Shown here: positions 1,249 through 52,432 of the stretch, one piece after another | How positions within the stretch are numbered: the first letter of the stretch is position 1 | How the letters are laid out: each line of letters begins with the position of its first letter | The notes under the pieces: model-generated | Seen by the model: only the letters and a program-made list of their open reading frames with translations | Databases searched by the model: none | Told to the model about the DNA's origin: nothing | Source: Clostridium beijerinckii | GTDB lineage: Bacteria > Bacillota > Clostridia > Clostridiales > Clostridiaceae | Direction: 5' to 3' | DNA length: 64,000 nt | Assembly: GCF_036699995.1 (NCBI RefSeq) | Contig: NZ_CP144906.1 | Location: 1,116,001 to 1,180,000, forward strand | Translations under genes and position numbers: made by a program

Positions 1249-1482
1249 TAGATCAACTTTAAAACTAAATTTATGTGGCAACTTACCGAAATCGCAAATA
1301 TTTTGTTCCGAAAAGCTATGAAAATATCGCTGGAAATTCTAAGTTGCAGGTTTCACCACTTTAGCATGCTCCAACTTTCAGTGTGACAAGCTAAAGTGGA
1401 ACAACCTACAACTAAGAATCTTAGCAGCTCATTTTCAAATGTTTTCTACACAAATATATTTATGATTTCTAGTTAAGATAAT
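1249..1482 (+). repeat. Palindromic repeat family, copy A (core-containing)
   Basis: Large imperfect palindrome. Outer arms (about 1264-1310 and 1450-1478) can pair. Inside lies a core (about 1325-1450) with the blocks ctatgaaaatat, ccactttagcatgctcc, gtgacaagc and ggaacaacct. The inner stem CCACTTTAGC/GCTAAAGTGG is perfect. The same arms without the core recur in reverse at about 14.2-14.34 kb (copy C). It lies between convergent genes and is not coding. Confidence 0.75.
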
Positions 1483-1597
1483 CATTTATATATAGTAAGT
1501 ATGGGAATATTTCTATGTAATAAGTCTAATTTACAGTTTGGATATCTATATTAAGTATTATATTCTTGAAATAAATACAAGTATTTTTAATAATAAT

Positions 1598-1645
1598 AAA
1601 GCACCACCAGATGTCATAATTTATAACATCTGGTGGTGCTTTTTC
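1598..1645. terminator. Bidirectional terminator between GNAT and MFS genes
   Basis: A near-perfect 17-bp stem (1598-1614 with 1626-1642, core gcaccaccagatgt) encloses an 11-nt loop. A T-run lies on the plus side and an A-rich flank on the other. It sits 7 bases past the stop of the minus-strand MFS gene and serves both convergent units. Confidence 0.85.
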
Positions 1646-1651
1646 ACTTTT

Positions 1652-2887
1652 CTATTCTGCTGAATCCATTTCACTACGCATTGAAGTATTAAATATCAAT
1701 GAAGTAAGCATTGCACCTATTAGAAAAAGTATGCCTGCTGAGATGTAGAGGATAGTAAGGGAAAATTGGCTTTTAAGCCAGCCTGTAATTGACATTGTAA
1801 TAACCATGAATCCCATAAACATTGGATTTAATACTCCGTTTACCCTTCCAACAAACTCAGATTTCGTTAATTGAAGAATTAGTGTGTTAATACCAATTTG
1901 GATACAAGGCATAAAAAATCCATTAAGGAATTGGAACAATAGAATTATAATCCAGCTTGAAGATAATCCCATGCCAACCATTGAAATGGTGTTAACTATA
2001 AGTCCTATTGCAAGAAGCTTTTGAGGCATAACTTTCTTTGATATTGTCATAACTAATCCGCCACCAATAAACATTGCTGCTCCATTTACCATAAGTAATA
2101 ATTGAAGATTTTCTTTAGGAAGACCGAGTCTTTCAACAATTAAGAAAACCCCAAGTGGTTGTATGATACCAACAGCAAGGCCTGATACCGCAAAAACAGA
2201 TCCAAGTATAGTTAGCTCTCTTTGCTGCCAAACATAGACGAAACCTTCTTTTAATTCTTCTAAGAAATGATTTGTAGTTTCTTTCTTCTCAATTATTTCA
2301 TCAGCGGGCAATAAGGTTAATACTGAAGCTGATAGCAAGAAAGCTACACCCATTATTGATATAGATATATCTATTCCAAACTTTTGAAAAACAATAGTAC
2401 CTAATGCTGGTCCTATAATCATAAAAATAGACATAAGAGTTTGGAAAATAGCCATTCCAGTTTGCATAAACTCTTCAGGAACATGGACTTTAAATAATTT
2501 CATTGCAGAAGGCTGAGAAAACTGCGACAAAATAGATGAAATAAATGTTACAAAAAATACAGCTTCCCAAGTTGCAAAGATTATTGTAAGCAGAACGGCA
2601 AAAACAGAAATAGCACTTAGTAAATCACACCAAACCATGGTACGCTTCGGTCGCCATCTATCTGCAAAGGTTCCCCCAATAAATGAGAATATAAATATTG
2701 GAGCAAATTCTGCAACTGAAATTAAAGAAACTGCAATGGGATTGTTATTAGTCTTCTCCATTACAAATAACAATATGGCGAAATTACGAACCCATATTCC
2801 TATTTGTAGAAAAATAGAAGAAGCTATAATTACTCGAACAAATCTATTGCGAAAAAATGAAGACATTGACATTGTCGATTTTGTCAT
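1652..2887 (-). CDS. MFS transporter, 12-TM drug/metabolite exporter type
   Basis: A 411-residue polytopic membrane protein with about 12 hydrophobic segments. The motif-A-like loop GGTFADRWRPKRTM comes after the second segment, as in major facilitator proteins of the MefA/EntS-like drug and siderophore exporter group. The role is proton-driven export across the cytoplasmic membrane. The substrate is unknown. The start at 2887 follows a clear AGAGGGG site 8 nt upstream. It is divergent from a second, different MFS exporter at 3058, with a 170-bp AT-rich gap that must hold both promoters. No regulator gene is adjacent. Confidence 0.85.
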   Translation of the reverse strand: MTKSTMSMSSFFRNRFVRVIIASSIFLQIGIWVRNFAILLFVMEKTNNNPIAVSLISVAEFAPIFIFSFIGGTFADRWRPKRTMVWCDLLSAISVFAVLLTIIFATWEAVFFVTFISSILSQFSQPSAMKLFKVHVPEEFMQTGMAIFQTLMSIFMIIGPALGTIVFQKFGIDISISIMGVAFLLSASVLTLLPADEIIEKKETTNHFLEELKEGFVYVWQQRELTILGSVFAVSGLAVGIIQPLGVFLIVERLGLPKENLQLLLMVNGAAMFIGGGLVMTISKKVMPQKLLAIGLIVNTISMVGMGLSSSWIIILLFQFLNGFFMPCIQIGINTLILQLTKSEFVGRVNGVLNPMFMGFMVITMSITGWLKSQFSLTILYISAGILFLIGAMLTSLIFNTSMRSEMDSAE

Positions 2888-3057
2888 ATAATTACCCCTC
2901 TTAAATTATTGAATATTTTATTATATACTATATCATAAATCAGTAGCACATCAAGTTAAAATATTATTATAATGTTGTATAAGTAGCTAAGTATATATAT
3001 AATTATAAAGTTGACCTTAAAATAAACAAAGGAAATTTATAAGGAAGTGATTTAAAG

Positions 3058-4512
3058 ATGAATTCAAGAAAAAGAAGCATTGCAGCAGCATTAATGGTGG
3101 CAATGTTTTTAGGAGCGGTCGAAGGAACTGTTGTAACGACAGCTATACCAACAATAGTGAAGGATTTACAAGGATTTGAAATTATTAGTTCAGTTTTTTC
3201 AGTATATTTACTAACTTCTGCTATTACTACTCCTATATATGGGAAACTATCAGATCTATATGGAAGGAAAAATATGCTTTCAATTGGAATAATAATATTT
3301 TTAATTGGAAGCTTTTTATGTGGATTATCGCAAACTATGTACATGCTGATAGGAGCTAGAGCTATACAAGGAATAGGTGCTGGAGCAATATTTACAGTTA
3401 CATATACAATTATTGGAGATGTATTTACATTAGAGGAAAGACCAAAGATCCAAGGAATAATAAGTTCTGTTTGGGGAATTGCAAGTTTAGTAGGGCCATT
3501 TTTGGGAGGAATTTTAATAGATTTATTATCTTGGCATTGGATATTTTTTATAAACCTTCCCTTTGGAATAATATCAGTTGTACTTATTCAAAGAAATTTA
3601 GATGAGGTATTCGAAAAGAAAAAACATAGCATAGATTTTGCAGGAATTATAACTTTATCACTGGCGATGGTTATATTTTTAAATATTTTCTTATCAAATG
3701 AAGATATGAGTTCCAGCAATAACCTATTTATTTTATTATCCGTCATTGCAACGGTTATATTACTGGTTGCATTCTGTATAATTGAAAGAAAAGCAAAAGA
3801 GCCAATTATTCCTTTTGATATATTTACAAAGACAAGTTCAATTGTGAATTTAATAAGCTTCTTGGCTTCAGCTATATTAATGGGTTCGGATGTTTATCTC
3901 CCAATATACATACAAAATGTACTTGGATATAGTGCTAAGATATCAGGCTTGTCACTAGCTCCCATGTCATTTGCTTGGCTTATAGCTGCAGTAATTTTAG
4001 GAAAGTGCATAGTAAAGTTTGGTGGGAAAATAGTAATACTTATATCTAATGTTATCTTACTAATTAGTACAGCGTTATTGCCTACATTGAATGCAGAATC
4101 TTCTATATTATTAGTAATAATATATGCTTTCATAATGGGATTTGGATTTGGTGGAGCATTTACAACTTTAACAATAATAATTCAAGAGTCAGTAGAATAT
4201 AACAAGAGAGGTGCTGCGACTGCAGCTAATTCATTGCTTAAAACAATAGGTCAAACTATAGGAGTAAGCATATTTGGTAGTATATTTAATATATATATAA
4301 TTAAGTATTTTACTCAATTAGGAATAAATGGAGTTGATCCAAGTAATTTGTATAATTCAGCGGTAACTGATCAACAGATAAAACTTTCATTAAACAGTTC
4401 GTTACATTTTTTATTTATAATACTTATAGGAATAGCTGTTATATCGTTATTTTCATCAATGATAATGCCTAAAATAATGGAAAGTTCTAAGACAGAGGAG
4501 AACAGAGCATAA
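3058..4512 (+). CDS. DHA2-family (EmrB/QacA-type, 14-TM) multidrug MFS transporter
   Basis: This 484-residue protein has the hallmarks of the 14-spanner drug:H+ antiporter-2 family. They are an acidic residue in the first helix region (AVEGTVVTTAIPTI), motif A (G62-KLSDLYGRK71) and a motif-C-like GIASLVGPFLGG in the fifth helix (about 140-152). It probably exports drugs or toxic metabolites. The substrate is not predictable. The start at 3058 follows AAGGAAG 12 nt upstream. Monocistronic, with a strong terminator 30 bp downstream. It is unrelated in subfamily to the divergent exporter at 1652-2887. Confidence 0.88.
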   Translation: MNSRKRSIAAALMVAMFLGAVEGTVVTTAIPTIVKDLQGFEIISSVFSVYLLTSAITTPIYGKLSDLYGRKNMLSIGIIIFLIGSFLCGLSQTMYMLIGARAIQGIGAGAIFTVTYTIIGDVFTLEERPKIQGIISSVWGIASLVGPFLGGILIDLLSWHWIFFINLPFGIISVVLIQRNLDEVFEKKKHSIDFAGIITLSLAMVIFLNIFLSNEDMSSSNNLFILLSVIATVILLVAFCIIERKAKEPIIPFDIFTKTSSIVNLISFLASAILMGSDVYLPIYIQNVLGYSAKISGLSLAPMSFAWLIAAVILGKCIVKFGGKIVILISNVILLISTALLPTLNAESSILLVIIYAFIMGFGFGGAFTTLTIIIQESVEYNKRGAATAANSLLKTIGQTIGVSIFGSIFNIYIIKYFTQLGINGVDPSNLYNSAVTDQQIKLSLNSSLHFLFIILIGIAVISLFSSMIMPKIMESSKTEENRA

Positions 4513-4540
4513 AATAGAGGTTGAAAATTTATGAATTACC

Positions 4541-4590
4541 GTGACTGTATCATATTAAGTTTTTTAATTATTATGATATAGTCACTTTTT
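4541..4590 (+). terminator. Terminator of the DHA2 exporter gene
   Basis: A 14-bp stem (gtgactgtatcata at 4541-4554 with tatgatatagtcac at 4572-4585) is followed by five T residues. The remaining DNA to 4750 shows no credible gene. Confidence 0.85.
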
Positions 4591-4751
4591 ATTATATAAG
4601 ATTGCATTGGAGTGAAATAGGAGGAATCTAGCCCACCATGAAGCATAAATTATTAATAAAGTTAATTCAGAGGGGGACATTTTAAAAGAGAACAAAAAGG
4701 AAAATATATTCATCGCCTAGATATCTCTTAGTTGAATTTGAAAATGCAGAT

Positions 4752-4783
4752 AAAAAAATCTCAGGATACGGAATCTCCTGAGA
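4752..4783 (-). terminator. Terminator of the ECF S-component gene
   Basis: An 8-bp stem tctcagga/tcctgaga (4759-4766 and 4776-4783) is followed on the minus strand by seven T residues (the A-run at 4752-4758). A second AT-only palindrome lies at about 4795-4814. Both are downstream of the minus-strand gene ending at 4850. Confidence 0.8.
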
Positions 4784-4849
4784 CTTTTAGTGATAGAAAA
4801 TTTTAAAATTTTCTGTTATAAAAATTTAAATGATTTATAGAAGCGAAGT

Positions 4850-5398
4850 CTAATGAGCGAATACAGTTTGTTTCGCTTTTGATACAACTGCACTTAATGG
4901 CAATGCAATTACTATGCCAGTAGATACTTGGATTATGTTCCCTAATATATCCTTAGCTGAATATGCTATTCCTTGTATTAGCCCAATTTTTTCTGTTAAA
5001 AAACCTGATATTATTATTCCAGCAAAAAAATATGCAATCACCATAAATATACCACTGGATACAAATGCAATTGTATACCTTACAGTAACTTTGTTTTCTG
5101 ACATTTTTTCCAATATGAATCCTGCAATATAAGCCATTCCCCATTTAATAACTAGTGTAAATGGTGCCCAAAAATAATATCCACCTAATGCGTCAACAAG
5201 AAACATGCCAAGAGCACTTGAAATTGCTCCTTTTTTCTTACCTAGAACTATTACAGATAAGAATACCATGCAGTCGCCTATTTGGACGAAGCCTCCAACT
5301 GATGGAATTTTAATTATGCTTCCTGCGATATAGGTTAAAGCAATCATTAGCCCCATTAATACTAGTTCGCTAGTATTTAAAGATTTACTTCTTTCCAT
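4850..5398 (-). CDS. ECF transporter S component (substrate-binding membrane subunit)
   Basis: This 182-residue protein with five to six hydrophobic segments resembles the energy-coupling-factor S-component family (PF07155-like). These proteins bind a vitamin or precursor and use a shared EcfA/EcfT module encoded elsewhere for uptake. Typical features are the short polar N-terminus followed by LVLMGLMIALTYIAG, and the conserved GDCMVFLSVIVLGKKKGA...GMFLVDALGGYYFWAPFT central region. The ligand (HMP, pyridoxine, pantothenate or folate types are all possible) cannot be assigned, and I saw no recognisable riboswitch in the 280 bp upstream. It is divergent from sbcD. Confidence 0.75.
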   Translation of the reverse strand: MERSKSLNTSELVLMGLMIALTYIAGSIIKIPSVGGFVQIGDCMVFLSVIVLGKKKGAISSALGMFLVDALGGYYFWAPFTLVIKWGMAYIAGFILEKMSENKVTVRYTIAFVSSGIFMVIAYFFAGIIISGFLTEKIGLIQGIAYSAKDILGNIIQVSTGIVIALPLSAVVSKAKQTVFAH

Positions 5399-5678
5399 AA
5401 ATATTACCTACCTTTTTATAAATTAATTACTGTATATAAATACAGGTTTTTATAGTCTTTGTTTTTATATCTAGCATGCTTTATACAATAAAACTCAATA
5501 CAAATAATAAAATTATTATATTAATATATCTAAAATTTATCAAATGTATGGGTACACATGGAAATGATTAGAATAATTCAATCTGGACATATATATCCAC
5601 AAAATAGTATTGGAAAAAATCTATTTAAGTAGGCTATAATGTAAATATAAATTGGTCCTAACGGGGAGGAGATATGAT

Positions 5679-6908
5679 TTGAGAATATTGCATACAGCTG
5701 ATTGGCATTTGGGCAAGAATTTAGAAGGACAAAGCCGAATGGATGAGCAAGAAGAGTTTTTAAATGATTTTGTTAAGATTGTAGAAGAGAATAATATAGA
5801 TTTAATAATGATTGCGGGAGACGTTTATGATAATCCAAACCCTCCGGCAAGGGCAGAAAAAATGTTTTATGATACTTTAAAGAGATTATCGAAAAATGGA
5901 GAGAGACTTACTTTGGTTATATCAGGAAATCATGATAATCCAGAGAGATTGGTTGCGGCAGGTCCACTTGCTCGTGATCATGGAATTATTATGGTTGGGA
6001 CACCAAAAACTATAGTTACTTGTGGTGAGTATGGGAAACATAAAGTTTTGTCATCAGGAGAAGGGTATGTGGAAGTTGAAATTAATAATGAAAAAGCAGT
6101 TATTTTAACTGTGCCTTATCCAAGTGAGAAAAGATTGAATGAAGTTATTTATAACTATATGGAAGATGAAGAGGAAAAAGCTAAATCCTATAGTGATAAG
6201 ATATTTTCTTTATTCAATTCGTTAAAAAGTCATTTTAGAGAAGATACAATTAATCTTATAATATCGCATCTATTTGCAATGGGAAGTGAGGAAGGTGGTT
6301 CTGAAAGAAGCATCCAATTAGGAGGTGCTTATATAGTAGATGGAAGTTGTTTTCCTAAGGAAGCACAGTATATAGCATTAGGGCATGTGCATAAACCACA
6401 AATAGTTCCAGGAACGGATAAAAGAGCAAGGTATTGTGGGTCACCAATTCACTATAACAAAAAAGAGATTAGCTTTGAAAAGAGATGTTATATAGTTGAT
6501 GCAAAAGCTAATGAAGAATGTGACATACAAGAAATAAGCTTAAGGGTATATAAACCAATAGAAATTTGGAAATGCTCAAGTATTGAAGATGCAATATTAC
6601 GATGTGCTGAAAATAAAGATAAAGATTGCTGGGTGTATTTAGAAATAAGTACAGATAGATACATAAGAGAAGATGAAATAAAGCAAATGAAAGAATTAAA
6701 AGCAGATATATTAGAAATAATGCCTAAGGTTAAGGGACTAGAAGAAGAGAGTGAATTAAACTTAAGTGAAAAATCGTTTGAGGAAATATTTAAGGAGTTT
6801 TATCTTAAAGAAAGGGGGACTCCTCCAGAAGGTGAAGTTATGGAATTGCTTTTATCAATTATAAATGAAGAGGGTGAAACAGATGAGACCAATCAAATTG
6901 AGGATTAA
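5679..6908 (+). CDS. sbcD: Exonuclease subunit SbcD (Mre11-type)
   Basis: A 409-residue metallophosphoesterase, the nuclease subunit of SbcCD. With SbcC it opens DNA hairpins and processes double-strand ends in the cytoplasm. Phosphoesterase motifs in order: D8-x-H10 (HTADWHLG), GDVYD at 47-51, GNHDNPER at 83-90 and a distal GHVHKP. I chose the TTG at 5679 because it directly follows the strong GGGGAGGA site (5663-5670) and gives the family-typical start MRILHTADWHLG. The open frame extends to 5652, but that would overlap the ribosome binding site. A TATAAT hexamer at 5635-5640 is the likely -10. It overlaps sbcC by 26 nt, so the two are translationally coupled. Confidence 0.95.
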   Translation: MRILHTADWHLGKNLEGQSRMDEQEEFLNDFVKIVEENNIDLIMIAGDVYDNPNPPARAEKMFYDTLKRLSKNGERLTLVISGNHDNPERLVAAGPLARDHGIIMVGTPKTIVTCGEYGKHKVLSSGEGYVEVEINNEKAVILTVPYPSEKRLNEVIYNYMEDEEEKAKSYSDKIFSLFNSLKSHFREDTINLIISHLFAMGSEEGGSERSIQLGGAYIVDGSCFPKEAQYIALGHVHKPQIVPGTDKRARYCGSPIHYNKKEISFEKRCYIVDAKANEECDIQEISLRVYKPIEIWKCSSIEDAILRCAENKDKDCWVYLEISTDRYIREDEIKQMKELKADILEIMPKVKGLEEESELNLSEKSFEEIFKEFYLKERGTPPEGEVMELLLSIINEEGETDETNQIED

Positions 6909-9900
6909 GGGCTTAAATAGCTTCATGGATGAACAAATTATAGATTTTGATAAATTAACAGACAGAGGATTTTTTGGAATCTTTGGACCTACTGGAAGTG
7001 GGAAATCAACTATATTAGATGGAATAACTTTAGCATTATATGGAAATGTATCAAGAAAAAGCTCCAATTTTATAAATACTAATTGTGACAGATTAAATGT
7101 AAATTTTGAGTTTCAAATATCAGGTAGTGAAATAAGAAAATATATCATTGATAGGGAGTTTAAAAGAAAAAAAGATGGAGGAATAAGCTCTGGAAAGTGT
7201 AAAATCGTTGAAGTAACAAGTTCAGAAGAAGAAATTTTAGCAGATGGAGTTAAAACTATAAATAAGAAAGTTGAGGAGATAGTAGGTCTTAATTTAGAAG
7301 ATTTCTCAAGAACTGTTGTTTTACCTCAGGGTAAGTTTAGTGAATTCTTAAAGCTTGAAGGCAAAGATAGGCGTGATATGCTTGAAAGGTTGTTTAACCT
7401 TCAACAATTTGGAGACAATTTATCCAGAAAACTTAGTGCAAAGATAAGCAAAGAGCGAACTGATAGCAATATTTTGGCTGGACAATTAAGTGGATACAAC
7501 GATGTAAGTCCAGAAAAATTAAAAGAAAAGGAAGATTCTTTTAATGAATTAAAAAATAAGCTGGAAGCTTTGAAAAAGGAATTAGATATAATAGAAAAGA
7601 AGCATAAAGAAAATGAAGAAATATGGAAGCTACAGCTTGATTTATTAGAGTATAAAAATAAAGAACAAAAATTAAAGGAAAAAGAGGAAAAGATAAATTC
7701 ATATCTAGAAAAGATAAAGCTAGGTGAAGCAGGCGCAAAGGTGCTACCTTATTTAAATGCATTTGAAAGCACTAGAAAAGCCTTTGATAAAAATGAGATT
7801 GAGTTAGAAGAATTAAAATTAAAGATAGATAATATAAAAGAAGAAAAAGAAAAAATCGAGCAACTTTGGTGTATGGCAAAAGATAAAAAAGAGAATAAAC
7901 TTCCTCAATTAATGATGCAGGAACAAAAAGTTAAAGATGCTATTGAAGAAAAGAATTTGATACGTGAGATAGAAAATAAAATAGATTTATTAAAGGCACA
8001 AATTAAAGAATGTGATGCTAAAAATAATAGTATACAGAGTGAGCTCATTAAAATAGAAGAAGAAATAAGTAATAAAAATAAATTAATAAAAGAAGACGAA
8101 AAAACATATGATAACTTGAAAATTGAAGAAAGCTTAAAAGAGGCAGTTCAAGAAGGAATAATTGTAGAAGAAAAGTTAGAAAAAATAAATGGAATTCTAG
8201 TTAAGGATAAGCAAAAGAAAGCAGCTATTGAAAAAGAAAATAGTGAAACTATACTTAAAGGAAAAGCTTTAAGAGAAGTTTTAGATAAAGAAAAAAAGAG
8301 TTTAGAAGATAAAGAGAAACAATATGAGTTTTTACTTAAAAATTCGCCAGGTGAACAAAAAGATTTGGTTAATTTAAAACAGTTGATAGTGGAAAATGAG
8401 CAAAAATGGAGTAGTTATGTAAAGCTGAACAAAGAAATAGATTTCTCTAGAGAAGAGATAAAAAACTTACAAATAGATATATTAAGTAGAAGAGAAGAAG
8501 AAAAGCAACTTGAAAAAGAACTAGAGGAAATAAAGAATACTCAAAAGGAGATTATGAGAGAAAATTTAGCACATACTCTTAGACAGGAACTTAAAGATGG
8601 AGATACATGTCCTGTATGTGGTTCAACTCATCATATGAAAGAAAATATTAGGATCTTTGAAGTTCAAGATGTGGAGAATATAGAGGAAAAAATAAAACTA
8701 AAAGAAAATTCAATAAAGATTATTAGTAGTAAAATAACTCAAGGTGAAACTAAGATAAATAGTTTTAACGAAAAAATTAAAGTTAATCTTGAAGAAATTG
8801 AAAAGCTTGGAACTGCGTTTAAGGAAAAACCTTTGGAAGAGTTAAAGCAGGGATTTATAGATTTAGAAAAAGCTTTAGAAAGTTATTTTAAAGATAAAGA
8901 AGAACTTGAAAAAAGTGTTAATAAGCTAAGGAATGAAATTAATATAAAAACTGGAGAAATAAATGAATTACGGGCAGTAGTTAGAACTAACCAAAGACAG
9001 CTTGAAGATTTGGAAAAGAGTATTACAGAAAATACAGAAGAATTGAATATTCTAAGAAATAGATTGGATTCGCTGAGAGCAAAGACATTAGTAAGTGATT
9101 TTAATAAAAAAAGCGAAGAAATTAAAGCCGTTGAAAAAGAGCGGGAAAGATTATCAAAGGTTATTAAAGCTAATAGAGAGCTAATAGAAAAGTTAGAAAA
9201 GAATAAAGAAAATTTAAGTAATGAAGTACTATTAGTAAAAGAAAACTTAACTAAGCATAATACAGAATTAAGTAGTTACGAAAAAAGTAAAGAAGAAAAA
9301 ATACAAGCGATAAAGAATAAGGTTGATAATGCAGATGATCTGGTTTCACTATTACATAAAATTCAGGAGAATATTGAAAATATTAATAGTGAGTTTAAGG
9401 AAAGCGAAAACAATAAAAATAAAATAGAGAAAGAATTTAATGAAAACAATGAGAGATTAATTTCTGTAATCAGTAAATATAAAGAATTAAGTAAACGAAA
9501 AAAAGATGAAGAAGCTCAGTTAGAAGTTGCAATAGACAGTGAAGGTTTTAAGTCACTTGACGATGTTAAAAAAAATATAATTGGAAAAGAAGAAATTAAT
9601 GATTATAAATTAAAAGTAGAAAGTTATAAAAGTGAAGTATCAAAAGTAAATGGAGCAATTGAAAGTTTACTTAATAAAATAGATGGTAAAGAGTTAAGTG
9701 AAGAAGAATATACAGAAATAAAACTCTTAAAAGATATTAAAGAAAAAGAGTTCAATGAAATTAATGAAGAGAAAATTAAGTTAGATGAAGAATTAAAAAA
9801 CATAAAAAATAAGCTGGAAGAACAGAAAGACCTCTTAGATAAAAAGATGAAACTAGAACATAAATTGGCTCTTCTTGGTGATTTAGAAAAGTTATTTAAG

Positions 9901-10374: not shown

Positions 10375-10386
10375 ATTTATAAAAAT

Positions 10387-10424
10387 AACAAGTTATTATA
10401 TTAATATATAGCTTGTTGTTTTTT
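10387..10424 (+). terminator. Terminator of sbcDC
   Basis: A stem aacaag/cttgtt (10387-10392 and 10412-10417), extended by AT pairs across ttattata/tatata, is followed by a T-run. A second weak hairpin (tagacct/aggccta, about 10586-10610) precedes a TTTATTTTATT tract before the L25 gene. Nothing else is recognisable in 10425-10690. Confidence 0.65.
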
Positions 10425-10703
10425 GTGTAAATTGGTAATTAAGTGCTATAATATACATTGTAATTAGATTACGAAAATAAAAAATTCAATAAATATTAGA
10501 GGCGATTTTAAATGTTTAATTGTAAGTCTAACTTGATTTTATCTTTTCATAATTCTTCAGATAAAATTAATATTAGAAAAACTATTAGACCTTGTAAATG
10601 CAATAGGCCTATTTATTTTATTCCAACGTGAATGTACATTCTTAAAATGTGAATTAAATACATTGTAAGAAAATGAAAAATAAATTTTTAGGAGGTACTT
10701 ATA

Positions 10704-11273: not shown

Positions 11274-11326
11274 AATTACAGATAAACAGAGTTGAATTTT
11301 AAATATTATAATCAACCATTTTAATA

Positions 11327-11620
11327 TAGTATATATAGATAAATAATTTGTAATATAGATTAGTGCAATATTATAAAAAAAGCAGAAACGTTATTATTTC
11401 GCAAGACTATGAAAATTTCGTTGAAAGTACTAAATTGCAGGTTGCATTACTAATGCTTGTTCCCAATTTCGTTGTGACAAGCATTAGTCGAACAACCTAC
11501 AATTAAGCACTTTTAACAACTCGTTTTCAAATGCTTGCTGCATAAAAATGTTCCTGCTTTTTATTTTGGTGTTTATTGTAAGATGCGAATCGGATTTTTA
11601 AATTATTTATCTATATAGTA
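11327..11620 (+). repeat. Palindromic repeat family, copy B (core-containing)
   Basis: An approximately 290-bp imperfect palindrome. The outermost arms tatatagataaataattt-like (11331-11348) and aaattatttatctatata (11600-11617) pair. A second arm pair is aaaagcagaaacgtt (about 11378-11392) with aatgttcctgcttt. The core (about 11404-11545) has gactatgaaaatttc, gtgacaagc, cgaacaacct and cgttttcaaatgcttgc blocks like copy A. The inner stem sequence differs but still pairs (ACTAATGCTTG/CAAGCATTAGT). It fills most of the 560-bp gap between L25 and pgm. Confidence 0.75.
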
Positions 11621-11833
11621 AATTTATGATTATTATGAAAAGTGACCTTGTTTCAAAGATATATTTTAGGATAATTTTAATTATTGCAGTTAATATTATA
11701 GATTAGAAGGGTAAAATGCTTGGCAATACATCCAAGTTTTTATATATGATGCAAAATATATAAAAGTGTTTTTATATTATGGATAAATATTGTATAATGT
11801 ATAGGAGAAAAAACACAGAGAGGGGATCAGAAA

Positions 11834-13886: not shown

Positions 13887-13887
13887 T

Positions 13888-13998: not shown

Positions 13999-14219
13999 AC
14001 TGCACAATTAAGAAATAAATGCCTTTGAGAAATTTATAGAATTGTATTATTACAAATTTCCTGGGAAATCTGCTCAATAATTGCGCATTCTCAATTTTGA
14101 AATTATAGATTGATTAAGTATTGATAATGATAATTAAATATTTGACTTATTAGATAAACATATTTACTAGATCTTTAACATATAACTTGACTTATTAGAT
14201 GAACATACTTACTAAGTTG
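13999..14219. repeat. Imperfect palindrome and 45-bp direct repeat
   Basis: Between about 13999 and 14100 is an imperfect palindrome with the word tgcacaattaagaa and its counterpart aattgcgcattctcaattt. The same vocabulary recurs at 15.48-15.58 kb. Next comes a two-copy direct repeat, ttgacttattagataaaca (14142) and ttgacttattagatgaaca (14187), period 45 bp. No gene is seen here. Confidence 0.55.
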
Positions 14220-14340
14220 CTAAAACTTTAAGTTTGTATCTTCACTAGAAATCATAAATATATTTTCATAGCTTTTCGGAATCAAAATATTTATGATTTT
14301 GGTAAGTTACCATATAAATTTAGTTCTAGAGTTGGATATC
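14215..14340 (-). repeat. Palindromic repeat family, copy C (core-less)
   Basis: Read on the minus strand this follows copy A base for base in its arms (ctaaatttat.tgg.aacttacc, ttccgaaaagctatgaaaat and atatttatgatttctagt). It jumps from gaaaat directly to atatttatg and omits the approximately 125-bp core of copy A. The result is a short 23-bp-arm hairpin (14249-14271 with 14280-14302). It ends about 30 bp before the TPR gene. Confidence 0.75.
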
Positions 14341-14371
14341 TATAAAGCGAGATTTAAACAAGAGGTGTAAA

Positions 14372-15472: not shown

Positions 15473-15476
15473 AATG

Positions 15477-39873: not shown

Positions 39874-39887
39874 AATTATTGCGAAGC

Positions 39888-40078
39888 ACTCGAAATATAA
39901 AAATACTTGCAATTTCATGAATTTTTAAGTTTACTGCTAAGCAACTGAAACGGAATATATGCGTTTGCTCCGGTTCCTTGAAGATTTCGCAAAAACATAT
40001 ATTCCATTTCTGATATTTAGCGTAAATTCAAAGTAATGCATATTTAAGCAAGTATTTTTATATTTCTTTGGCTAGCAA
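39888..40078 (+). repeat. Palindromic repeat family, copy D (core-less)
   Basis: Three nested arm pairs. The outer pair is cgaaatataaaaatacttgc with gcaagtatttttatatttc. The second is taagtttactgctaa with ttagcgtaaattcaa. The inner is gaaacggaatatatgcg with aaacatatattccatttc. The same arms in the same order are found in copy F after ldh. Copy D runs from gaagatttcgc directly to aaaaacatatattcc and has no core. Confidence 0.78.
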
Positions 40079-40200
40079 TACATTTGGTATAACGCATATA
40101 AACTTTAGAGTATAAATTAATTGACATTTTTAATTCCTATTTAATATAGGAGGTATTGTAATTTCTTTAAGATACTATTTGTTAAGTATATATTGTAACA

Positions 40201-40412
40201 GCAGAACAAAGAAATAGAATACATATATGTGGAGCAGGCATTGAAAAATAAGCTGCTGGAATATCTTAATGGTAAGTTGTTCCACTTTCGCTTGTCCTGT
40301 GCTTGTCACAGGAGCATGCAGAAGTGGTGCAACTTTCTATTTAGATATTCCCAGAGAAATTTTTCACAGTCCTGAGGAACATATATGTATTCTATTTCGG
40401 GTGTTCATTGCT
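40201..40412 (-). repeat. Palindromic repeat family, copy E (core-containing)
   Basis: The outer arms gaaatagaatacatatatgt (40211-40230) and acatatatgtattctatttc pair perfectly. Read on the minus strand the core has gactgtgaaaaatttc, gttgcaccacttctgcatgc, a cctgtgacaagcacagg mini-hairpin, aagtggaacaac and aatgcctgc. It is inverted relative to copy D, 120 bp away. Confidence 0.78.
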
Positions 40413-40454
40413 TCACATTAAGTTGTGATCAAATACATTTACAAGGAGGGAAAG

Positions 40455-41216: not shown

Positions 41217-41250
41217 AGGCTTGTCATATGAATGGCAAGCCTTCTGTATT
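41216..41250. terminator. Bidirectional terminator
   Basis: An 8-bp stem aaggcttg/caagcctt (41216-41223 and 41236-41243) overlaps the surE stop codon. The flanks are T-rich on the plus side and A-rich on the other. Confidence 0.8.
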
Positions 41251-43186: not shown

Positions 43187-43215
43187 TTGACATGCCTTTG
43201 ATTAAAGTATACAAT
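43187..43215 (+). promoter_or_regulatory. Promoter of pflB (first copy)
   Basis: TTGACA (43187-43192), a 17-bp spacer and TACAAT (43210-43215), 67 bp before the start codon. The leader is short and carries no riboswitch, unlike the second pflB. Confidence 0.75.
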
Positions 43216-43282
43216 AATGGTATGAATTAATTGATTAAAAATTAACAAAGTTTTTAATCAAAAGTATAAAGGAGGAAAACTA

Positions 43283-45514: not shown

Positions 45515-45567
45515 TGAGAAGTACGGTAATGTATATTAGTTAAGGATTACTATAAAATAAGTTTTTG

Positions 45568-45599
45568 GAAGAAGGGGAAGGTGAACTTTCCCTTCTTTT
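45568..45599 (+). terminator. Terminator of pflB copy 1
   Basis: A GA-rich stem (gaagaaggggaag with ctttcccttctt) with a short loop and terminal Ts. The following 250 bp to pflA are AT-rich, with a TATAAT at 45828-45833 as possible pflA -10. Confidence 0.75.
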
Positions 45600-45854
45600 G
45601 CCTTATGATGAAGAAACAATAGAGTTAGATAATATTAAGGGATGATATGGTGTACCATATACAATTCTCTTAAATATTAATAAGCTTATTTAAGGGAATA
45701 ATAAATTAATATATATTCTAAAAGTGTTAATTCAATAAGCGTTCTCTTAAAGTACTAAATAATATCCCAAAATAATTTTATAGAGGATGAATTATATTAT
45801 TTAGAACTTATGTATATTAATTTGAAGTATAATAAAGTATAGGGGGTGTAACAA

Positions 45855-46580
45855 ATGGTAAAAGGTAATGTTCATTCAATAGAGAGCATGGGTCTTGTGG
45901 ACGGACCAGGAATTAGAGTGGTAGTATTTTTGCAAGGTTGTGCGTTAAGATGTAAGTATTGTCATAATCCTGATACTTGGGCTGCTAATGGTGGAGAGGA
46001 ATATACTCCAGAGCAGTTAGTTAAGAAGATTGAAAGATTTAAAACTTACTTTGCAAGTAGTGGTGGAGGAGTCACATTTTCAGGTGGAGAGCCTTTAAGG
46101 CAGCCAGAATTTTTACTAGAAACTCTTAAATTATGTAAAAGTAAAGGAATTAATACCTGTATAGATACAGCAGGTTATGGATTTGGTGATTATGATGAAA
46201 TATTAAAATATACAGATTTAGTTTTATTTGATATAAAACATTTTACACCAGAGGGATACAAAAATGTAACACTAATGAATATAGATGAATCTTTAAAATT
46301 CTTGGAGGCGATGAAGAGAAATAATACAAAGATGTGGATAAGGCATGTTGTGGTTCCAGGGTTAACAGATGATGTAGAACATTTAAAGGAGCTTAAAAAA
46401 TACATCGATGAGATACCTAATGTTGAAAAAGTAGAATTACTTCCATATCATTTATTAGGTACAAATAAGTATGAAGGACTAGGGATTAAATATCCTCTTG
46501 AAAATGTAAAAGCCATGGATAAGGAATTAATTAAAAAATATCAAAAAGAGATATTTGGAGATTATTCTTATGACAAATAA
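45855..46580 (+). CDS. pflA: Pyruvate formate-lyase activating enzyme
   Basis: A 241-residue radical-SAM enzyme that installs the glycyl radical on PflB. The [4Fe-4S] ligands are C29-x3-C33-x2-C36 in QGCALRCKYCHNPD. The SAM-binding GGGVTFSGGEPLRQPEF (GGE motif) and RHVVVPGLTDD follow. RBS AGGGGGTG, spacing 7. It sits between the two pflB copies and presumably activates both products, since their radical loops are identical. Confidence 0.96.
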   Translation: MVKGNVHSIESMGLVDGPGIRVVVFLQGCALRCKYCHNPDTWAANGGEEYTPEQLVKKIERFKTYFASSGGGVTFSGGEPLRQPEFLLETLKLCKSKGINTCIDTAGYGFGDYDEILKYTDLVLFDIKHFTPEGYKNVTLMNIDESLKFLEAMKRNNTKMWIRHVVVPGLTDDVEHLKELKKYIDEIPNVEKVELLPYHLLGTNKYEGLGIKYPLENVKAMDKELIKKYQKEIFGDYSYDK

Positions 46581-46814
46581 GATGATTGAATGGGGATTTT
46601 AAATTTAGTATCAAAATTAACTTAATGCATTATCAAATAAAATAATAGGTTCAAAATTCTATGATTATTTTTCATTAGGTAAAGAAGCAAATTGGGCTTA
46701 TAGCTAGTCTATTAGTGTAATCTGCTGATAGAAGCATAATGGAAAATAAGTTTTGCAGATGGATGCGTTATTTCTTGATTATACTTAACAATAATAAGTG
46801 TAAAATTATTCTTG
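46581..46814. other. Gap after pflA, no gene seen
   Basis: About 230 bp of AT-rich DNA with no open frame worth noting and no clear terminator for pflA. TTGACA at 46815-46820 with TATTAT at 46836-46841 (15-bp spacer) is a candidate promoter for the riboswitch transcript. Confidence 0.35.
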
Positions 46815-46854
46815 TTGACAAACCAAATGGTTTAGTATTATTCTTATATTAGAT

Positions 46855-46975
46855 ATTAGTCATATGACTGACGGAAGTGGAGTTACCACATGAAGTATGA
46901 CTAGGCGTATTATCTTATATGCCACAAAAAGCCGACCGTCTGGGCAAAAAAGCCTGGATTGTGTCGGCTTTTTTA
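46855..46975 (+). promoter_or_regulatory. ZTP (pfl-motif) riboswitch with terminator
   Basis: The sequence matches the pfl RNA consensus. P1 is tagtcat/atgacta (46857-46863 and 46897-46903). The first domain is tgactgacggaagtggagtt with the accac hairpin, and the second conserved domain is gccgaccgtctgggc (46931-46945). The required pseudoknot pairs GACGG (46870-46874) with CCGTC (46936-46940). The second domain is also the 5' arm of a terminator (agccgac...gtcggct, then a T6 run at 46969-46974), so ZTP/ZMP binding should prevent termination and switch on the downstream pflB. ZTP signals 10-formyl-THF shortage. Confidence 0.93.
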
Positions 46976-47021
46976 TATGGAAAAAATTATATAATTGAAT
47001 TTATTTTAGGGAGGAAAAAAT

Positions 47022-49253
47022 ATGTTTAAACAATGGGAAGGATTCAAAAACGGAACATGGCAAGAGGGTATTGATGTAAGAAACTTTATACAGAAAAATT
47101 ATAAGTTATACGAGGGAGATGGAAGTTTCTTAGAAGAGAAAACAGAAAGGACAAGCAAAGTTTGGGACAAAGCTTATGCCTTAATAGTTGAGGAAGTAAA
47201 AAAGGGAATAATTGATGTTGCTACAGATAGAGTATCAGGGATAGATAACTATGAACCTGGGTATATAGATAGAGATAACGAAGTTATAGTTGGGCTTCAA
47301 ACAGATGCACCACTTAAGAGAATAGTAAATCCATTTGGTGGAATGAGAATGGTTCAAAGTTCATTAAAGGAATATGGATATGAACTTGATCCAGAAATTA
47401 ATAATCATTTTTCAAAATATAGAAAGACTCACAATGAAGGTGTTTTTGATGCGTATACAAAAGAAATAAGAGCAGCAAGAAGTGCTGGATTATTAACTGG
47501 ACTGCCAGATGCGTACGGTAGAGGAAGAATAATAGGTGATTATAGAAGAGTAGCTCTTTATGGTATAGATTACTTAATAGAAGAAAAGAAAAAGGATCTT
47601 GATAATCTAAATGGTGATATGCTTGATGAATTGGTAAGAAAAAGAGAAGAAGTTTCAATGCAGATAAGAGCTTTAGGCGAAGTAAAATCAATGGCAGCAA
47701 AATATGGAATTGATATATCTAAGCCAGCATCAAATGCAAGAGAAGCAGCACAACATTTATACTTTGGATACTTAGCAGGAATTAAAGAAAATAATGGAGC
47801 TGCAACATCCTTTGGAAGAACTTCAACATTCTTAGATATATACATTGAAAGAGATTTGGAAGCTGGGTTAATCTCAGAAAAAGAAGCTCAAGAAATAGTT
47901 GACCAATTAATTATAAAGTTAAGATTAGTTAGACATTTAAGAACTCCAGAATATAATGAATTATTCGGGGGAGATCCAACTTGGGTAACTGAGTCAATAG
48001 GTGGAGTTGGTATAAACGGGAAGCCTCTTGTTGCTAAGAATTCATTTAGATATCTTCATACATTAATAAATCTAGGAACATCAGCAGAACCAAACTTAAC
48101 AGTTTTATGGTCAGATAAACTTCCAGAAAACTTTAAAAAGTATTGTGCGGAAATCTCAATAAAGACAGATTCGATTCAATATGAAAATGATGAAGTTATG
48201 AGGCCAATATATGGAGATGATTATGCTATAGCTTGTTGTGTATCAGCTATGAAGGTTGGTAAACAAATGCAATTCTTTGGAGCTAGAGCCAATATAGCTA
48301 AATCACTTTTATATGCTATAAATGGTGGAGTAGATGAATTAAAAGGTATAAAAGTAGTACCAGGAATTGAAAAACTTACAGATGAAGAAATTCTTGATTT
48401 TGATAAAGTAAAGGCAAATTACTTCAAAGTATTGGAATATGTAGCAAAAGTTTATGTAGATACAATGAACATAATTCACTTTATGCATGATAAATACGCT
48501 TATGAGGCAAGTCAAATGGCTCTTCATGATACAGCAGTAGAAAGATTAATGGCATTTGGTATTGCAGGTCTATCAGTAGCTATAGATTCATTATCAGCTA
48601 TAAAATATGCAAAAGTTAAGCCTATTAGAAATGAAGAAGGGATAGCTGTAGATTTTGAAGTTGAAGGAGATTTCCCTAAATACGGGAATGATGATGACAG
48701 AGCAGATGATCTAGGCGTAGAATTAGTAACTAAATTCTCTGGAGAGCTTAAAAAGCATCCTCTATACAGAAATGCAAAACATACATTATCAGCGCTAACA
48801 ATCACATCAAATGTAATGTATGGTAAGAAGACTGGAACAACACCAGATGGAAGAAAGAAAGGTGAACCTTTAGCGCCAGGAGCAAATCCAATGCACGGTA
48901 GAGATATAAATGGAGCGTTGGCATCACTTAACTCAGTAGCTAAAATACCATACAATGAAATTTGTCAGGATGGTGTATCTAATACATTCTCAATCGTGCC
49001 AGATGCACTTGGAAAAAATGAAGATCAAAAGATTAATAATTTAGTTGCAATTTTGGATGGATATTTTACTCAAGGAGCTCATCACTTAAATGTTAATGTT
49101 CTTAACAGACAAACATTAATAGATGCGATGGAAAATCCAGATAAGTATCCAACACTTACAATAAGGGTATCAGGATATGCTGTTAACTTTAGCAGATTAT
49201 CAAAAGAACAACAATTAGAAGTTATAAGCAGAACATTCCATGAAAGTATTTAA
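47022..49253 (+). CDS. pflB: Pyruvate formate-lyase, copy 2 (ZTP-controlled)
   Basis: A 743-residue paralogue of the 43283 gene with the same catalytic C405-C406 and radical G718. The proteins differ at only about 30 scattered positions, mostly in the first 140 residues (for example KNIEEYFPK versus PEINNHFSK near 112-121). RBS GGGAGG, spacing 8. The leader carries the ZTP riboswitch, which copy 1 lacks. This copy may therefore make formate for one-carbon units when folate is short, while copy 1 is the constitutive or fermentative form. That division is inference. Own terminator downstream. Confidence 0.97.
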
Positions 49254-49260
49254 TCAAATT

Positions 49261-49305
49261 AAAATAGAGAAGGGATAAGCAAAAATCCCTTCTCTATTTT
49301 AATTT
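49261..49305 (+). terminator. Terminator of pflB copy 2
   Basis: A perfect 15-bp stem aaaatagagaaggga/tcccttctctatttt with a 10-nt loop and Ts in and after the 3' arm. Confidence 0.9.
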
Positions 49306-49415
49306 GTAATAATTATATTTAGGCTTTGTCTTAGTAAAATTATAGATGAATTTCAATGAACTAAAATTTTAAGAAGATTTTAATGGTTTCAAGTTAATAA
49401 ATTAATTGTGGATAT

Positions 49416-49460
49416 AAAAAGACTATAGGACATAATATACCAGTCCATATAGTCTTTTTG
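49416..49460. terminator. Bidirectional terminator (rubredoxin side)
   Basis: A stem aaaaagactat(a)gga with tcc(at)atagtcttttt (49416-49430 and 49444-49459), T-run on both strands. It lies 85 bp past the end of the minus-strand rubredoxin gene. Confidence 0.75.
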
Positions 49461-49543
49461 ATCTCGTATGAAAATATTAATTTAAATTATCTTTAAGTAT
49501 ACTAATTTTTACGAGATGAGTTAAATATAATTTTTATAATGTG

Positions 49544-49705
49544 TTATTCTAGTACAGAAAAATTATCTTTGTTAAAAGCGCAAATGGGGCATACCCAATA
49601 GTCAGGCAAATCATTAAAATCTACATGTGGAGCAATTCCACCATCAGGATCTCCAAGTTCTGGATCATAAATATATCCGCATACTTCACAAACATATTTT
49701 TTCAT
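49544..49705 (-). CDS. Rubredoxin
   Basis: A 53-residue iron-sulfur electron carrier. The Fe(Cys)4 site is formed by C6-x2-C9-G ([19 protein letters not shown]) and C39-x2-C42 (WVCPICAF). Usual rubredoxins have CPxCG in the second loop and here the Gly is Ala. The PDYW aromatic core and [16 protein letters not shown] are standard. In Clostridia rubredoxin passes electrons to oxygen and peroxide reductases. RBS GAGGTG, spacing 7, before ATG at 49705. Single gene. Confidence 0.93.
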
Positions 49706-49866
49706 CTTATCACCTCATTTATAGTTTAAACAAGACAAGAATAAATTTTAAAACTGTTTAAATCCTAAAATTTTAGATACCATAAAGAATACATATAGTA
49801 AAAGCCCCGAGTTATAGTATATTATATGATATTTTTATTGAGGTGTTAATTAATAAAAATTATATT

Positions 49867-50496
49867 TTATTTTACTCCATTAGAGTTCTTAGCTAGAATA
49901 TTTGAAAAATACCCCTTTGGAAAGTACCCTTTCTTTAATCCTTCGATAACAGTTAAATATGTTGCAGCTGTATCAAATCTAGCATCATGATAATTTCCAC
50001 TACCTTCAAATAATTTTTCAGATGTCTCAACAATTTGTTCATTTGATATGTTTAACCAATCTATTACTTCAGATAATTTTGGATTTTTGATTTCTCCATT
50101 GGCCTTTGGAATCTTACATATATCTCTATAGTAAGCCATAGTGCAGAAAACATTTTTTGGGTAAAAATCTTCTCCTAAAGAGAACAATTCATGTTTTAAA
50201 AATCTAACATCAAAATTAACATTATGACCGATTAGAAAATCAGCAGTCATAAAATCATCAAGAAATTCAGGTACTAAATCCTCAAAATATTGTCCATCAG
50301 ATAATTCATAAAGCTTCTCTAAAGAAAAACCATGAATTTCTTGGGCAGAAGGGTCCATCTCATCGACTGTAAAAAAGAAGTTTTTACCAGTAGTTATCTG
50401 AGGTTTTGTACTAGCATCAACAGTTATGTAACTTAACTGACATATGCTGCCGGGTTTTATACTAGTGGTTTCTGTATCAAAAAATAATAATTTCAT
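49867..50496 (-). CDS. DnaQ-like 3'-5' exonuclease (DEDDh)
   Basis: A 209-residue exonuclease-fold protein. Exo I is FFDTETTSI (D7, E9), Exo II is IGHNVNFDVRFLKHE and Exo III is YHDARFDTAATYL, giving the DEDDh set. It resembles the proofreading epsilon family but is a stand-alone exonuclease, likely acting on DNA or RNA 3' ends in repair or turnover. The ATG at 50496 has GGAGGT 9 nt upstream. The frame opens 14 codons further but without a site. Divergent from ldh. Confidence 0.85.
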   Translation of the reverse strand: MKLLFFDTETTSIKPGSICQLSYITVDASTKPQITTGKNFFFTVDEMDPSAQEIHGFSLEKLYELSDGQYFEDLVPEFLDDFMTADFLIGHNVNFDVRFLKHELFSLGEDFYPKNVFCTMAYYRDICKIPKANGEIKNPKLSEVIDWLNISNEQIVETSEKLFEGSGNYHDARFDTAATYLTVIEGLKKGYFPKGYFSNILAKNSNGVK

Positions 50497-50758
50497 TAAA
50501 GTGTACCTCCATCTTCTGCGTAAAACATTTAAAAACAATTACGTCTATATGCTTACTAATAAATTCATTATTAAGTTGCTAAATTTAATTATATAGTATT
50601 TACGAAAAAATTCAAATAAGGTATAATCAGATAAGAATGATTATTAATTAATAAAATTGTTAGATAATAATTTAAGATGAAACTTGTTATGAGCAAATAA
50701 TAAATTTGTTATCTGGAAAGAATAGAATTAATATTGGATTAATTAGGAGGAATATATA

Positions 50759-51709
50759 ATGGTAGAAAGAAAACGTAAAATATCTGTGATTGGTGCAGGT
50801 TTTGTAGGTGCAACAACAGCATATGCATTAATGAATAGTGGAGTAGCTACAGAAATATGTTTATTTGATATAAATATGGATAAAGCAATGGGAGAAGTTA
50901 TGGATTTAGTTCATGGTACTTCTTTTGTAAAGCCTGTTAGTATTTATGCAGGAAGTATTGAAGAAACTAGAGATTCAGATATAGTTATAATTACAGCTGG
51001 TGCAGCTCAAAAAGAAGGGGAAACTAGACTAGATCTTATTGAAAAAAATTACAATATATTTAAGAGCTTTGTTCCACAACTAGCAGCAGCAAGCCCAGAT
51101 GCTATTTTGTTAGTAGTATCAAATCCATGTGATGTGCTTGCATATATAACTTATAAGTTATCTGGATTCCCTAAGGAAAGAGTAATAGCATCAGGAACTG
51201 TATTAGATACGTCAAGATTAAAATACGTTATTGGTAAATACTTTAATGTAAATAATAATAATATCCATGCATATGTTTTAGGAGAACATGGTGACAGCGA
51301 AGTTGTTAGCTGGAGTACTGCAAGCATAGCTGGAGAAACTTTTGAAGAATATGCTAAAAAGTTCAATTTAGAGTGGGATGATGATGTAAAATCAGTAATA
51401 GAAAGCGATGTTAAAAATGCAGCTTATGAAATAATAAGTAGGAAAAATGCGACTTATTTTGCTGTAGCATTAGCAGTAAATACAATAGTAGAAGCTATAT
51501 TAAGAGACGAAAATACTATTTTAACTGTATCATGTTTGATGCAGGGAGAGTATGGAATAGAAGATGTTTACTTAGCGGTGCCAACAATTTTAAATAGTAA
51601 GGGTGTTGTAAGAATTGTAAACCCTGTTCTAAATGATGAAGAATTGAAAAAATTAAAAGAATCAGCAAGTGTTCTAAAAGGGCATATTGAAAAAGTTGTG
51701 AATAAATAA
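50759..51709 (+). CDS. ldh: L-lactate dehydrogenase
   Basis: A 316-residue NAD-dependent enzyme reducing pyruvate to L-lactate. The NAD loop GAGFVGATTA is at 12-21. AGAAQKEGETRLDL carries the substrate-specificity Gln (lactate rather than malate) and the catalytic Arg. VSNPCDVL and the active-site histidine in LGEHGDSEVVSW are intact. RBS TTAGGAGGA, spacing 8. No fructose-bisphosphate-site residue can be confirmed by eye. No Rex-type operator was recognised upstream. It ends just before the paired palindromes F and G. Confidence 0.95.
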   Translation: MVERKRKISVIGAGFVGATTAYALMNSGVATEICLFDINMDKAMGEVMDLVHGTSFVKPVSIYAGSIEETRDSDIVIITAGAAQKEGETRLDLIEKNYNIFKSFVPQLAAASPDAILLVVSNPCDVLAYITYKLSGFPKERVIASGTVLDTSRLKYVIGKYFNVNNNNIHAYVLGEHGDSEVVSWSTASIAGETFEEYAKKFNLEWDDDVKSVIESDVKNAAYEIISRKNATYFAVALAVNTIVEAILRDENTILTVSCLMQGEYGIEDVYLAVPTILNSKGVVRIVNPVLNDEELKKLKESASVLKGHIEKVVNK

Positions 51710-51738
51710 CTAGAATTAACTAAATGTATTTTGTACTA

Positions 51739-52048
51739 AGCGAAATATAAAAATACTTGCAGTATGAGTAGGTTCTAAGTTTACTGCTAAACTCTCGAAA
51801 GGGAATATATGCGTTTGTTCTGGATCTCTGAAGATTTTATCGGGTGATTCTAAGAACAGAAGTTGTGCCCAAAATGCTAGCCTCAAAAGCAAGTTTTGAA
51901 CTAGCATATTTGGAACAACTTCTAATCTAAGAATCACAGCCAGCAAGATCTTCTAATGAACACTGCACAAAAGCATATATTCTCTTTCTTTATTTTGTAG
52001 TAAATCTAAATTAAATTCATATTTATACAAGTATTTTTATATTCCTGC
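51739..52048 (+). repeat. Palindromic repeat family, copy F (core-containing)
   Basis: An approximately 310-bp hairpin. The outer arms gcgaaatataaaaatacttg and caagtatttttatattcctg are followed by taagtttactgctaa/tagtaaatctaaatt, gaaagggaatatatgcg/agcatatattctctttc, gtgattctaag/cttagaatcac-type pairing, gaagttgt/acaacttc and a central ccaaaatgctag/ctagcatatttgg stem. It is the core-bearing version of copy D. Confidence 0.8.
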
Positions 52049-52115
52049 ATTTAGCAATATCCCATCTAATAATTGACTTAAATATTTAAGAGTCTATATT
52101 GATTTCTAAGTATTT

Positions 52116-52163
52116 CGCACATATGTTTAAAAAAGCAGCTGGTAAAAAATATCCGGCTCCACT
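52116..52163 (+). repeat. Short segment related to the pyrB-leader insert
   Basis: Words cgcacatatgtttaaaaaag, gcagctggtaaaaaatat and cggctccac parallel the segment at 33420-33470. A T8 run follows, as there. It lies in the spacer between repeat copies F and G. No gene is present in 51710-52468. Confidence 0.4.
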
Positions 52164-52234
52164 TTTTTTTCTGTGACTTTTTTATAACTATCATCATAAA
52201 TTTAGAATATTTGAAATACTAAAAATGATAGCAA

Positions 52235-52432
52235 AACAAAGAAAGAGAATACATATATGTGAAGCAGGCATTGAAAAATAAGCTGCTTATATCTTAATGG
52301 GAAGTTGTTCCATTTTTGCTTGTCCTGCGCTTGTCGCAGGAGCATGAAGAAATGGTGCAACTTTCTATTTAGATATATCCAGTGAAATTTTTCTAGTCAT
52401 GTGGAATATATATGTATTCTCTTTCGGTTGTT
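52235..52432 (-). repeat. Palindromic repeat family, copy G (core-containing)
   Basis: The outer arms aaagaaagagaatacatata/tatatatgtattctcttt and the core (minus strand: gttgcaccatttcttcatgc, cctgcgacaagcgcagg, aaatggaacaac) correspond to copy E throughout. The paired bases change together: the small hairpin CCTGTG/CACAGG in E is CCTGCG/CGCAGG in G. Confidence 0.8.

Follow-up and report, generated by a model that had tools for sequence, protein, structure and literature searches.

Among the closest described systems is RUP of Streptococcus pneumoniae, a MITE of IS630-Spn1 that is given in the available parts of its descriptions (PMC2229807, PMC3049150) as non-coding and present in more than 100 copies, with IS630-like ends and a TA at the target, overrepresented between convergent genes and with repeats inserted into one another, all of which also holds for the hairpins that we describe here. 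By description the two are set apart by length (107 bp for RUP and about 280-440 bp here, as delimited by the end pattern) and by the conserved covarying interior that these hairpins, unlike RUP, have in common between subfamilies differing in stems and ends. BOX of S. pneumoniae, as far as the available text of PMC3049150 goes, is modular, variable in length, folded and in places transcribed; the likeness is one of description, BOX being built of box modules while here modules enter the tip and the stem of a hairpin. The double-hairpin and repetitive hairpin elements of mitochondria are likewise small, intergenic and multiplying, with double hairpins as found here, but they belong to organelle DNA and the proposals for the mechanism of their mobility, in the accessible part of PMC2800124, differ and are unsettled. 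Within Clostridium, stem-loop repeat families comparable to the present one include Clop-1 (C. perfringens) and Clot-1 (C. tetani), which at 93 and 74 nt are set apart from these hairpins by their description in the excerpts of PMC2267715; the accessible portion of PMC1590033 names no stem-loop family of the Clop/Clot type. In a literature search conducted largely outside subscription journals we found no paper on this hairpin family.

The family was noticed in a stretch of 64,000 nucleotides of Clostridium beijerinckii (NZ_CP144906.1, positions 1,116,001 to 1,180,000), referred to below as the window, for which a first-pass annotation had recorded one kind of long palindrome at seven sites. 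We found that these sites represent different subfamilies, as follows (window coordinates):

1247-1550, plus strand: site A, a predicted A-type IS630 MITE; giant hairpin with its core at 1303-1451 and ends TATAGATC...GATATCTATA
11334-11615, plus strand: site B, a predicted B-type IS630 MITE; core at 11394-11543 and ends TATAGATAAATAATTT...AAATTATTTATCTATA
14187-14344, minus strand: site C, an A-type copy with its core deleted (scar); end ...GGATATCTATA at 14344
39892-40066, plus strand: site D, a hairpin without a core that looks like F in its outer stem; the outer arms are perfect over 19 bp
40211-40398, minus strand: site E, an E/G-type hairpin; core at 40229-40382, without TATAGATA ends
51742-52045, plus strand: site F, an F-type nested hairpin; core at 51812-51968
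52241-52425, minus strand: site G, an E/G-type hairpin; core at 52259-52409

The extent given earlier for site B was recovered, and site A proved longer than noted. No open reading frame of 80 aa or more overlaps any of the sites, in agreement with the earlier statement that no reading frame exists inside them. A covariance model was built from 28 diverse cores, including those of A, B, E, F and G, and the matches of these five sites (114-156 bits, on the expected strand: plus for A, B and F, minus for E and G) bear out that they have one conserved core in common, with the reservation that they match by construction, being among the building sequences. The opposite strands of E and G, which are palindromes, gave weak matches (55-56 bits). 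At an E-value of at most 1e-6 the model found no sixth core place in the window and none at C or D. At C the core has been deleted; near 3820 kb of the own genome a comparable deletion is evident from comparison with an orthologue that is intact. D resembles an F-like outer stem (80% match to positions 7-103 and 76% to positions 223-325 of the F query).

The observation that the stems change and still pair was strongly confirmed. In the 28 distinct cores 94.0% of the cells are paired, compared with 80.0 +/- 0.7% in shuffles and 31-45% in slid controls, and 19 of the 30 core pairs have changed on both sides; the covariation score is 0.400 against 0.151 +/- 0.010 for shuffled alignments, a value reached by none of 500 shuffles, the structure being derived from the same 28-core alignment as was tested. 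Folding of four hairpins gave z-scores against shuffles of -6.2 (A), -8.4 (B), -11.0 (E) and -11.0 (F). What had been described as short unpaired words is mostly paired: gcatgctcc pairs with gacaagc via one mismatch and one bulge, ggaacaac pairs with gttgca-cc, and the fixed features of the core are mismatches and bulges within a long stem. A match to a described Rfam family, raised earlier as a check, was not found at the sites, where no family reaches its gathering score (the best match below threshold, at F/G, has 29.2 bits against a gathering score of 74), and lenient searches of F/G, a long-tip A-type copy and a nested-tip copy gave matches that were all below gathering scores. The only Rfam families above threshold in the window lie elsewhere, namely a T-box leader (56932-57211, plus strand) and a ZMP/ZTP riboswitch (46854-46952, plus strand). 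Upstream of the latter, a stretch of about 170 bp without a core match (46585-46757) is missing from the relative G002 and mostly missing from the relative G003.

The suggested search of this and other Clostridium genomes with the covariance model was also carried out. In 377 kb of own DNA (the window and loci fetched because of matches) at least 137 core elements were found, 123 of them at least 110 nt long. When the own genome, a single contig of 5.55 Mb, was searched at the DNA level, A gave 89 matches, B 81, F 62 and E 47; many of these are one palindrome matched on both strands. By PyrE, the closest named records are a Clostridium MAG at 96%, followed by C. uliginosum and a second MAG at 88%. 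With the covariance model, 19 of the 68 genomes surveyed in the genus proved to have the core (up to 44 candidates being scored in each), as did 19 of the 225 surveyed across the order (13 scored in each), where all carriers belong to one of 56 genera. Both surveys used stricter filters, at the cost of weak matches; the A element had no match in plasmid and phage collections. A full copy is one long imperfect hairpin of about 190-440 bp with its ends, and 33 selected copies delimited by the end pattern measure 279-437 bp.

Many copies have the ends of a transposable element. Aligned A-type copies start with TATAGATA and end with TATCTATA, and these ends are carried by subfamilies A and B and by many F-type copies elsewhere. 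The end pattern TATAGATANNCYAAMT occurs at 44 sites, compared with 2 in a reversed control, and 26 of 30 fetched end-pattern places have a core match, in some cases partial, within about 220 bp; three of the other four look like interior-deleted short versions and one lies in a coding-like stretch. Ends of the TATAGATA type are also present on an IS630-family element of 1.2 kb in G002 (L274:859-2058), of which the right 34 bp or so are, by inspection, only a few bases off the A-type right ends. This element contains two overlapping ORFs (180 and 190 aa), one of which matches NF033545 at 107.3 bits (cut-off 100) and the other at 80 bits, below the cut-off; it also matches DDE_3 (94.6 bits) and HTH_33, and is directly flanked by one A-type and one F-type copy. 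In G003 three DDE_3 fragments at contig ends have one end pattern each, and the two that were inspected show the same end. Among 15 IS630 loci of relatives, both ends were found only at L274 and 11 had no fitting end pattern at all; the IS630 copies of G007 and G028 lack a TATAGATA-type end pair, and a DDE_3 match was absent from 8 of the 15 relatives searched. The own genome contains no intact IS630, and its one decayed DDE_3 relic was ruled out as the mobiliser by its stops and its lack of matching ends.

Insertion was followed with the first nine of 13 flank pairs (1980 of 2860 nt), of which three gave usable empty sites, the rest being filled, split or unmatched. At own position 2702651 the empty site of G003 consists exactly of left flank, TA and right flank; at 2709301 G002 has a single TA and the own copy an extra TA at its left; at 2442850 the empty site lacks further bases. 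TA duplication is clean at one site and supported at one more. In the window, site A (1246-1557) and site B are both missing from G002 and G003, in which the flanks match at about 95-97%. At site A the TATA ends do not directly adjoin the sequences that flank the empty site; extra bases lie in between. At site B, G002 and G003 carry 39 bp more spacer, containing an inverted repeat and T-run that is terminator-shaped by eye and was not flagged by a consensus terminator scan; the window keeps its left half and the right half is gone. A terminator-like site is present at 11718-11737 (plus strand), between element B and the next gene. One left flank, near 3163.7 kb of the own genome, contains a sequence of 35 bp, TTCATTATAATTCTAAAAATATTGCAAAAATTTTA, of which G002 and G003 have dozens of near-copies; it is apparently another dispersed repeat.

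Subfamilies A and B and the end-bearing F-type copies are thus short, non-coding and multicopy; their terminal inverted repeats match those of an autonomous element, and their TA target is duplicated (clean at one site). On these sequence features the TATAGATA-ended copies qualify as putative IS630 MITEs in the tests run. No TATAGATA-type ends were seen beside four E/G copies (L091, L061, L092 and L094) or at window sites F and D, and in the loose class comprising E/G and other copies (n=57) 36 had no end, 14 one end and 7 both. The E/G types and window F are tied to the TATAGATA-ended copies by the core only, and D by its outer stem. The earlier suggestion of a hairpin used by a transposase is therefore supported in one respect, namely by the IS630-type ends, the partner element and insertion at TA; we found no evidence that the transposase reads the hairpin.

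We also observed a preference in place and orientation. Of 172 elements flanked by a gene on either side (from the own genome, G002, G007 and G012, the stretches of the latter three picked around top-scoring model matches, and genes being simple ORF calls of at least 90 aa), 52 occupy convergent gaps and 14 divergent ones. Orientation bias was taken from tandem gaps only, since convergent gaps always score as co-directional; counts relative to the upstream gene (88/128 and 60/71), which are inflated by convergent gaps, were set aside. In tandem gaps the ratio of sense to antisense is 79:27 for all elements and 66:13 for those alone in the gap, and among the latter the core of sense copies begins 71 nt (median) downstream of the stop codon. 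When elements alone in the gap are classed by ends, the ratio is 22:5 with both ends, 20:4 with one and 24:4 with none. By subfamily, defined by loose sequence patterns, it is 30:2 for E/G and other, 19:6 for F, 24:16 for A and 6:3 for B; the idea that the bias resides mainly in the first of these classes was not upheld when copies were classed by ends. Replication-strand bias was ruled out as the cause (75:62 in the own genome), and genes opposing replication still show 10:1 in favour of sense (own genome, G002 and G012 together, with the origin placed at base 1 and the terminus halfway along the contig, a placement that for the own genome agrees with GC skew). Pneumococcal repeats are also enriched between convergent genes and have a leading-strand share of 61-63% (PMC3049150, in its available part), so that little follows from location by itself; the bias in orientation is stronger in the present family.

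Copies at orthologous positions were compared for nine pairs (eight with G002 and one with G003, one own locus being used twice), in which the per-base difference was 1.7% for stems, 2.9% for unpaired element bases and 4.5% for flanks, the flanks including coding DNA and the set being confined to straight-through alignments, which excludes indel-broken copies and biases towards conservation. Among 835 pairs, 23 had changed on one side and 3 on both. At site F, which lies in the spacer 3' of a lactate/malate-dehydrogenase-like gene, both G002 and G003 keep an orthologous copy. The sense placement, together with the lower divergence of orthologous copies than of flanks, makes an effect of the hairpins at the level of the host likely, and leaves room for an effect in transcripts.

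Strong covariation is usually taken as proof of a functional RNA, and selection on an RNA fold had indeed been proposed as its cause. A structured ncRNA or 3'-UTR family (a terminator, a stability element or riboswitch-like), selected for its fold and copied as a by-product, would be in line with the covariation, with the position behind stop codons in sense and with the slow divergence of orthologous copies. However, such selection predicts a more stable sense RNA, and the core-sense RNA folds worse than the antisense in 162 of 170 hairpins (means of -84.3 and -95.9 kcal/mol, respectively). Neither is G-U tolerated over A-C on the transcribed strand: for 122 distinct forward sequences (from 135 of 150 aligned rows after removal of duplicates, the other 15 rows being reverse-strand matches) the 30 consensus pairs comprise 3492 Watson-Crick, 48 G-U, 48 A-C and 57 other cells. 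Over the 170 whole hairpins, with an arm alignment that scores all mismatches alike, there were 581 A-C and 224 G-T, an excess that stems partly from a few recurrent mismatch sites and is also seen when distinct contexts are counted (255 to 141). A small control of seven ARAGORN tRNA calls (from fetched loci, some of other genera and one doubtful) showed 17 G-T and no A-C, within the limit that ARAGORN itself favours G-T. With the presence/absence polymorphism of copies, the lack of an Rfam family above gathering score and the lack of a terminator-like site at F/G in a consensus scan also against it, we regard an RNA family as quite unlikely, and the counts do not support selection on an RNA fold as what caused the covariation. 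Single-stranded DNA hairpins recognised by a Y1/HUH transposase, in the style of REP/RAYT or IS200/IS605, would explain why the stem has fixed defects while the rest of it varies, as is known for the hairpins of REP and IS200, and why G-T is tolerated more on one strand. They do not account for the terminal inverted repeats, the TA target and the IS630 partner of the A, B and F types, which makes this explanation very improbable overall, if still conceivable for the E/G types.

The reading that we favour, with a probability of about 0.78, is that the hairpins make up a superfamily of MITEs, here non-autonomous elements of foldback type, whose TATAGATA-ended subfamilies are moved by IS630 and whose stems are kept paired mainly by processes at the level of DNA. 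An IS630 transposase would cut and paste the TATAGATA-ended copies in trans; the E/G-type copies and window F and D, which are without such ends, may be older or depend on another mobiliser. The stems would stay paired mainly through template switching from arm to arm, exchange between copies and selection for Watson-Crick pairing. Template switching between arms is a known route to compensatory changes (PMC8794818, in its available part), and it is unlikely to be the sole cause here, since the positions of mismatches and bulges are fixed and conserved and since one-sided changes prevail in the orthologous copies; with only 3 of 26 changed pairs two-sided, rapid arm-to-arm correction is not seen on the time scale of orthologues. 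The surviving copies lie downstream of stop codons, preferentially oriented such that the transcript carries the interrupted, weaker hairpin. The opposite orientation might give a more harmful transcript end (by termination or RNase III cleavage) or, alternatively, the sense form might be a tolerated or useful 3' end. A stronger version of the latter, in which the interior is a portable 3'-end module on more than one kind of mobile end, kept in sense behind genes and built up in nested layers as smaller mobile hairpins enter its tip and stem, with hosts using the hairpins as transcript ends, is possible but doubtful; in it the conserved mismatches would weaken the fold of the sense transcript. 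It is unlikely that the copies are a mosaic of dead repeats, in which an old MITE burst decays neutrally and the hairpin shape is inherited rather than maintained. The absence of an intact IS630 from the own genome and the many truncated and deleted copies fit such decay, but the orthologous stems differ less than their flanks, there is covariation between subfamilies, and in G022 four copies have an identical score of 126.7 bits, which may point to recent spread there. Decay of this kind is compatible with the IS630 mobiliser of the favoured reading, and the probabilities of these explanations do not sum to one.

For mobile foldback elements maintained at the DNA level, the implication is that strong covariation can arise from mobile DNA hairpins, and the count of G-U versus A-C is a cheap discriminator that is applicable to other candidate RNAs. 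Should the preference for sense and the slow evolution reflect use, each genome would have dozens of places at which a hairpin supplies a ready-made transcript end. The family is also a tractable natural system for the evolution of bacterial palindromes, since nested insertion, loss of cores and inversion of blocks can be followed at its orthologous sites.

As single examples show, the hairpins remain hotspots: they take up smaller hairpin modules, lose their cores by deletion from one short direct repeat to the next, and are inverted in blocks of two. For instance, compared with G002 an own A-type hairpin has three additional inserts, one of 20 bp (outer stem), one of about 70 bp (mid stem) and one of about 65-70 bp (tip), and another own copy has lost its core between AAATAT repeats, leaving a scar like that of site C. 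Stretch 14187-14302 of site C is itself missing from G003, and at site G this relative keeps just an arm. The block of D and E (window 39891-40420) reads inverted relative to G002, as judged from a minus-strand BLAST match and inspection, and at this position only the outer arms of an E-type hairpin remain in G003. Similarly, a two-element block at 2309.0-2312.7 kb of the own genome reads inverted, between its outer ends, relative to the orthologous position of G002.

At five loci (L221, L224, L066, L220 and L250) the tips or stems of large hairpins contain small modules, about 50-80 nt long and sometimes nested in each other, which by eye consist of two hairpins in tandem (CTCA..TGAG and CCAAAT..ATTTGG); one module was also found outside a core (L265, about position 4261). 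A sequence of 17-20 nt, TATGACCCTTGTGGTTA, occurs with at most one mismatch at 22 places of the own genome (L372-L393), 18 of which have a core match nearby. L389 has the same hairpin context, L386, L390 and L391 differ, and in A-type and F-type hairpins the sequence occupies a single homologous position in the outer stem, CCA^CAAA.
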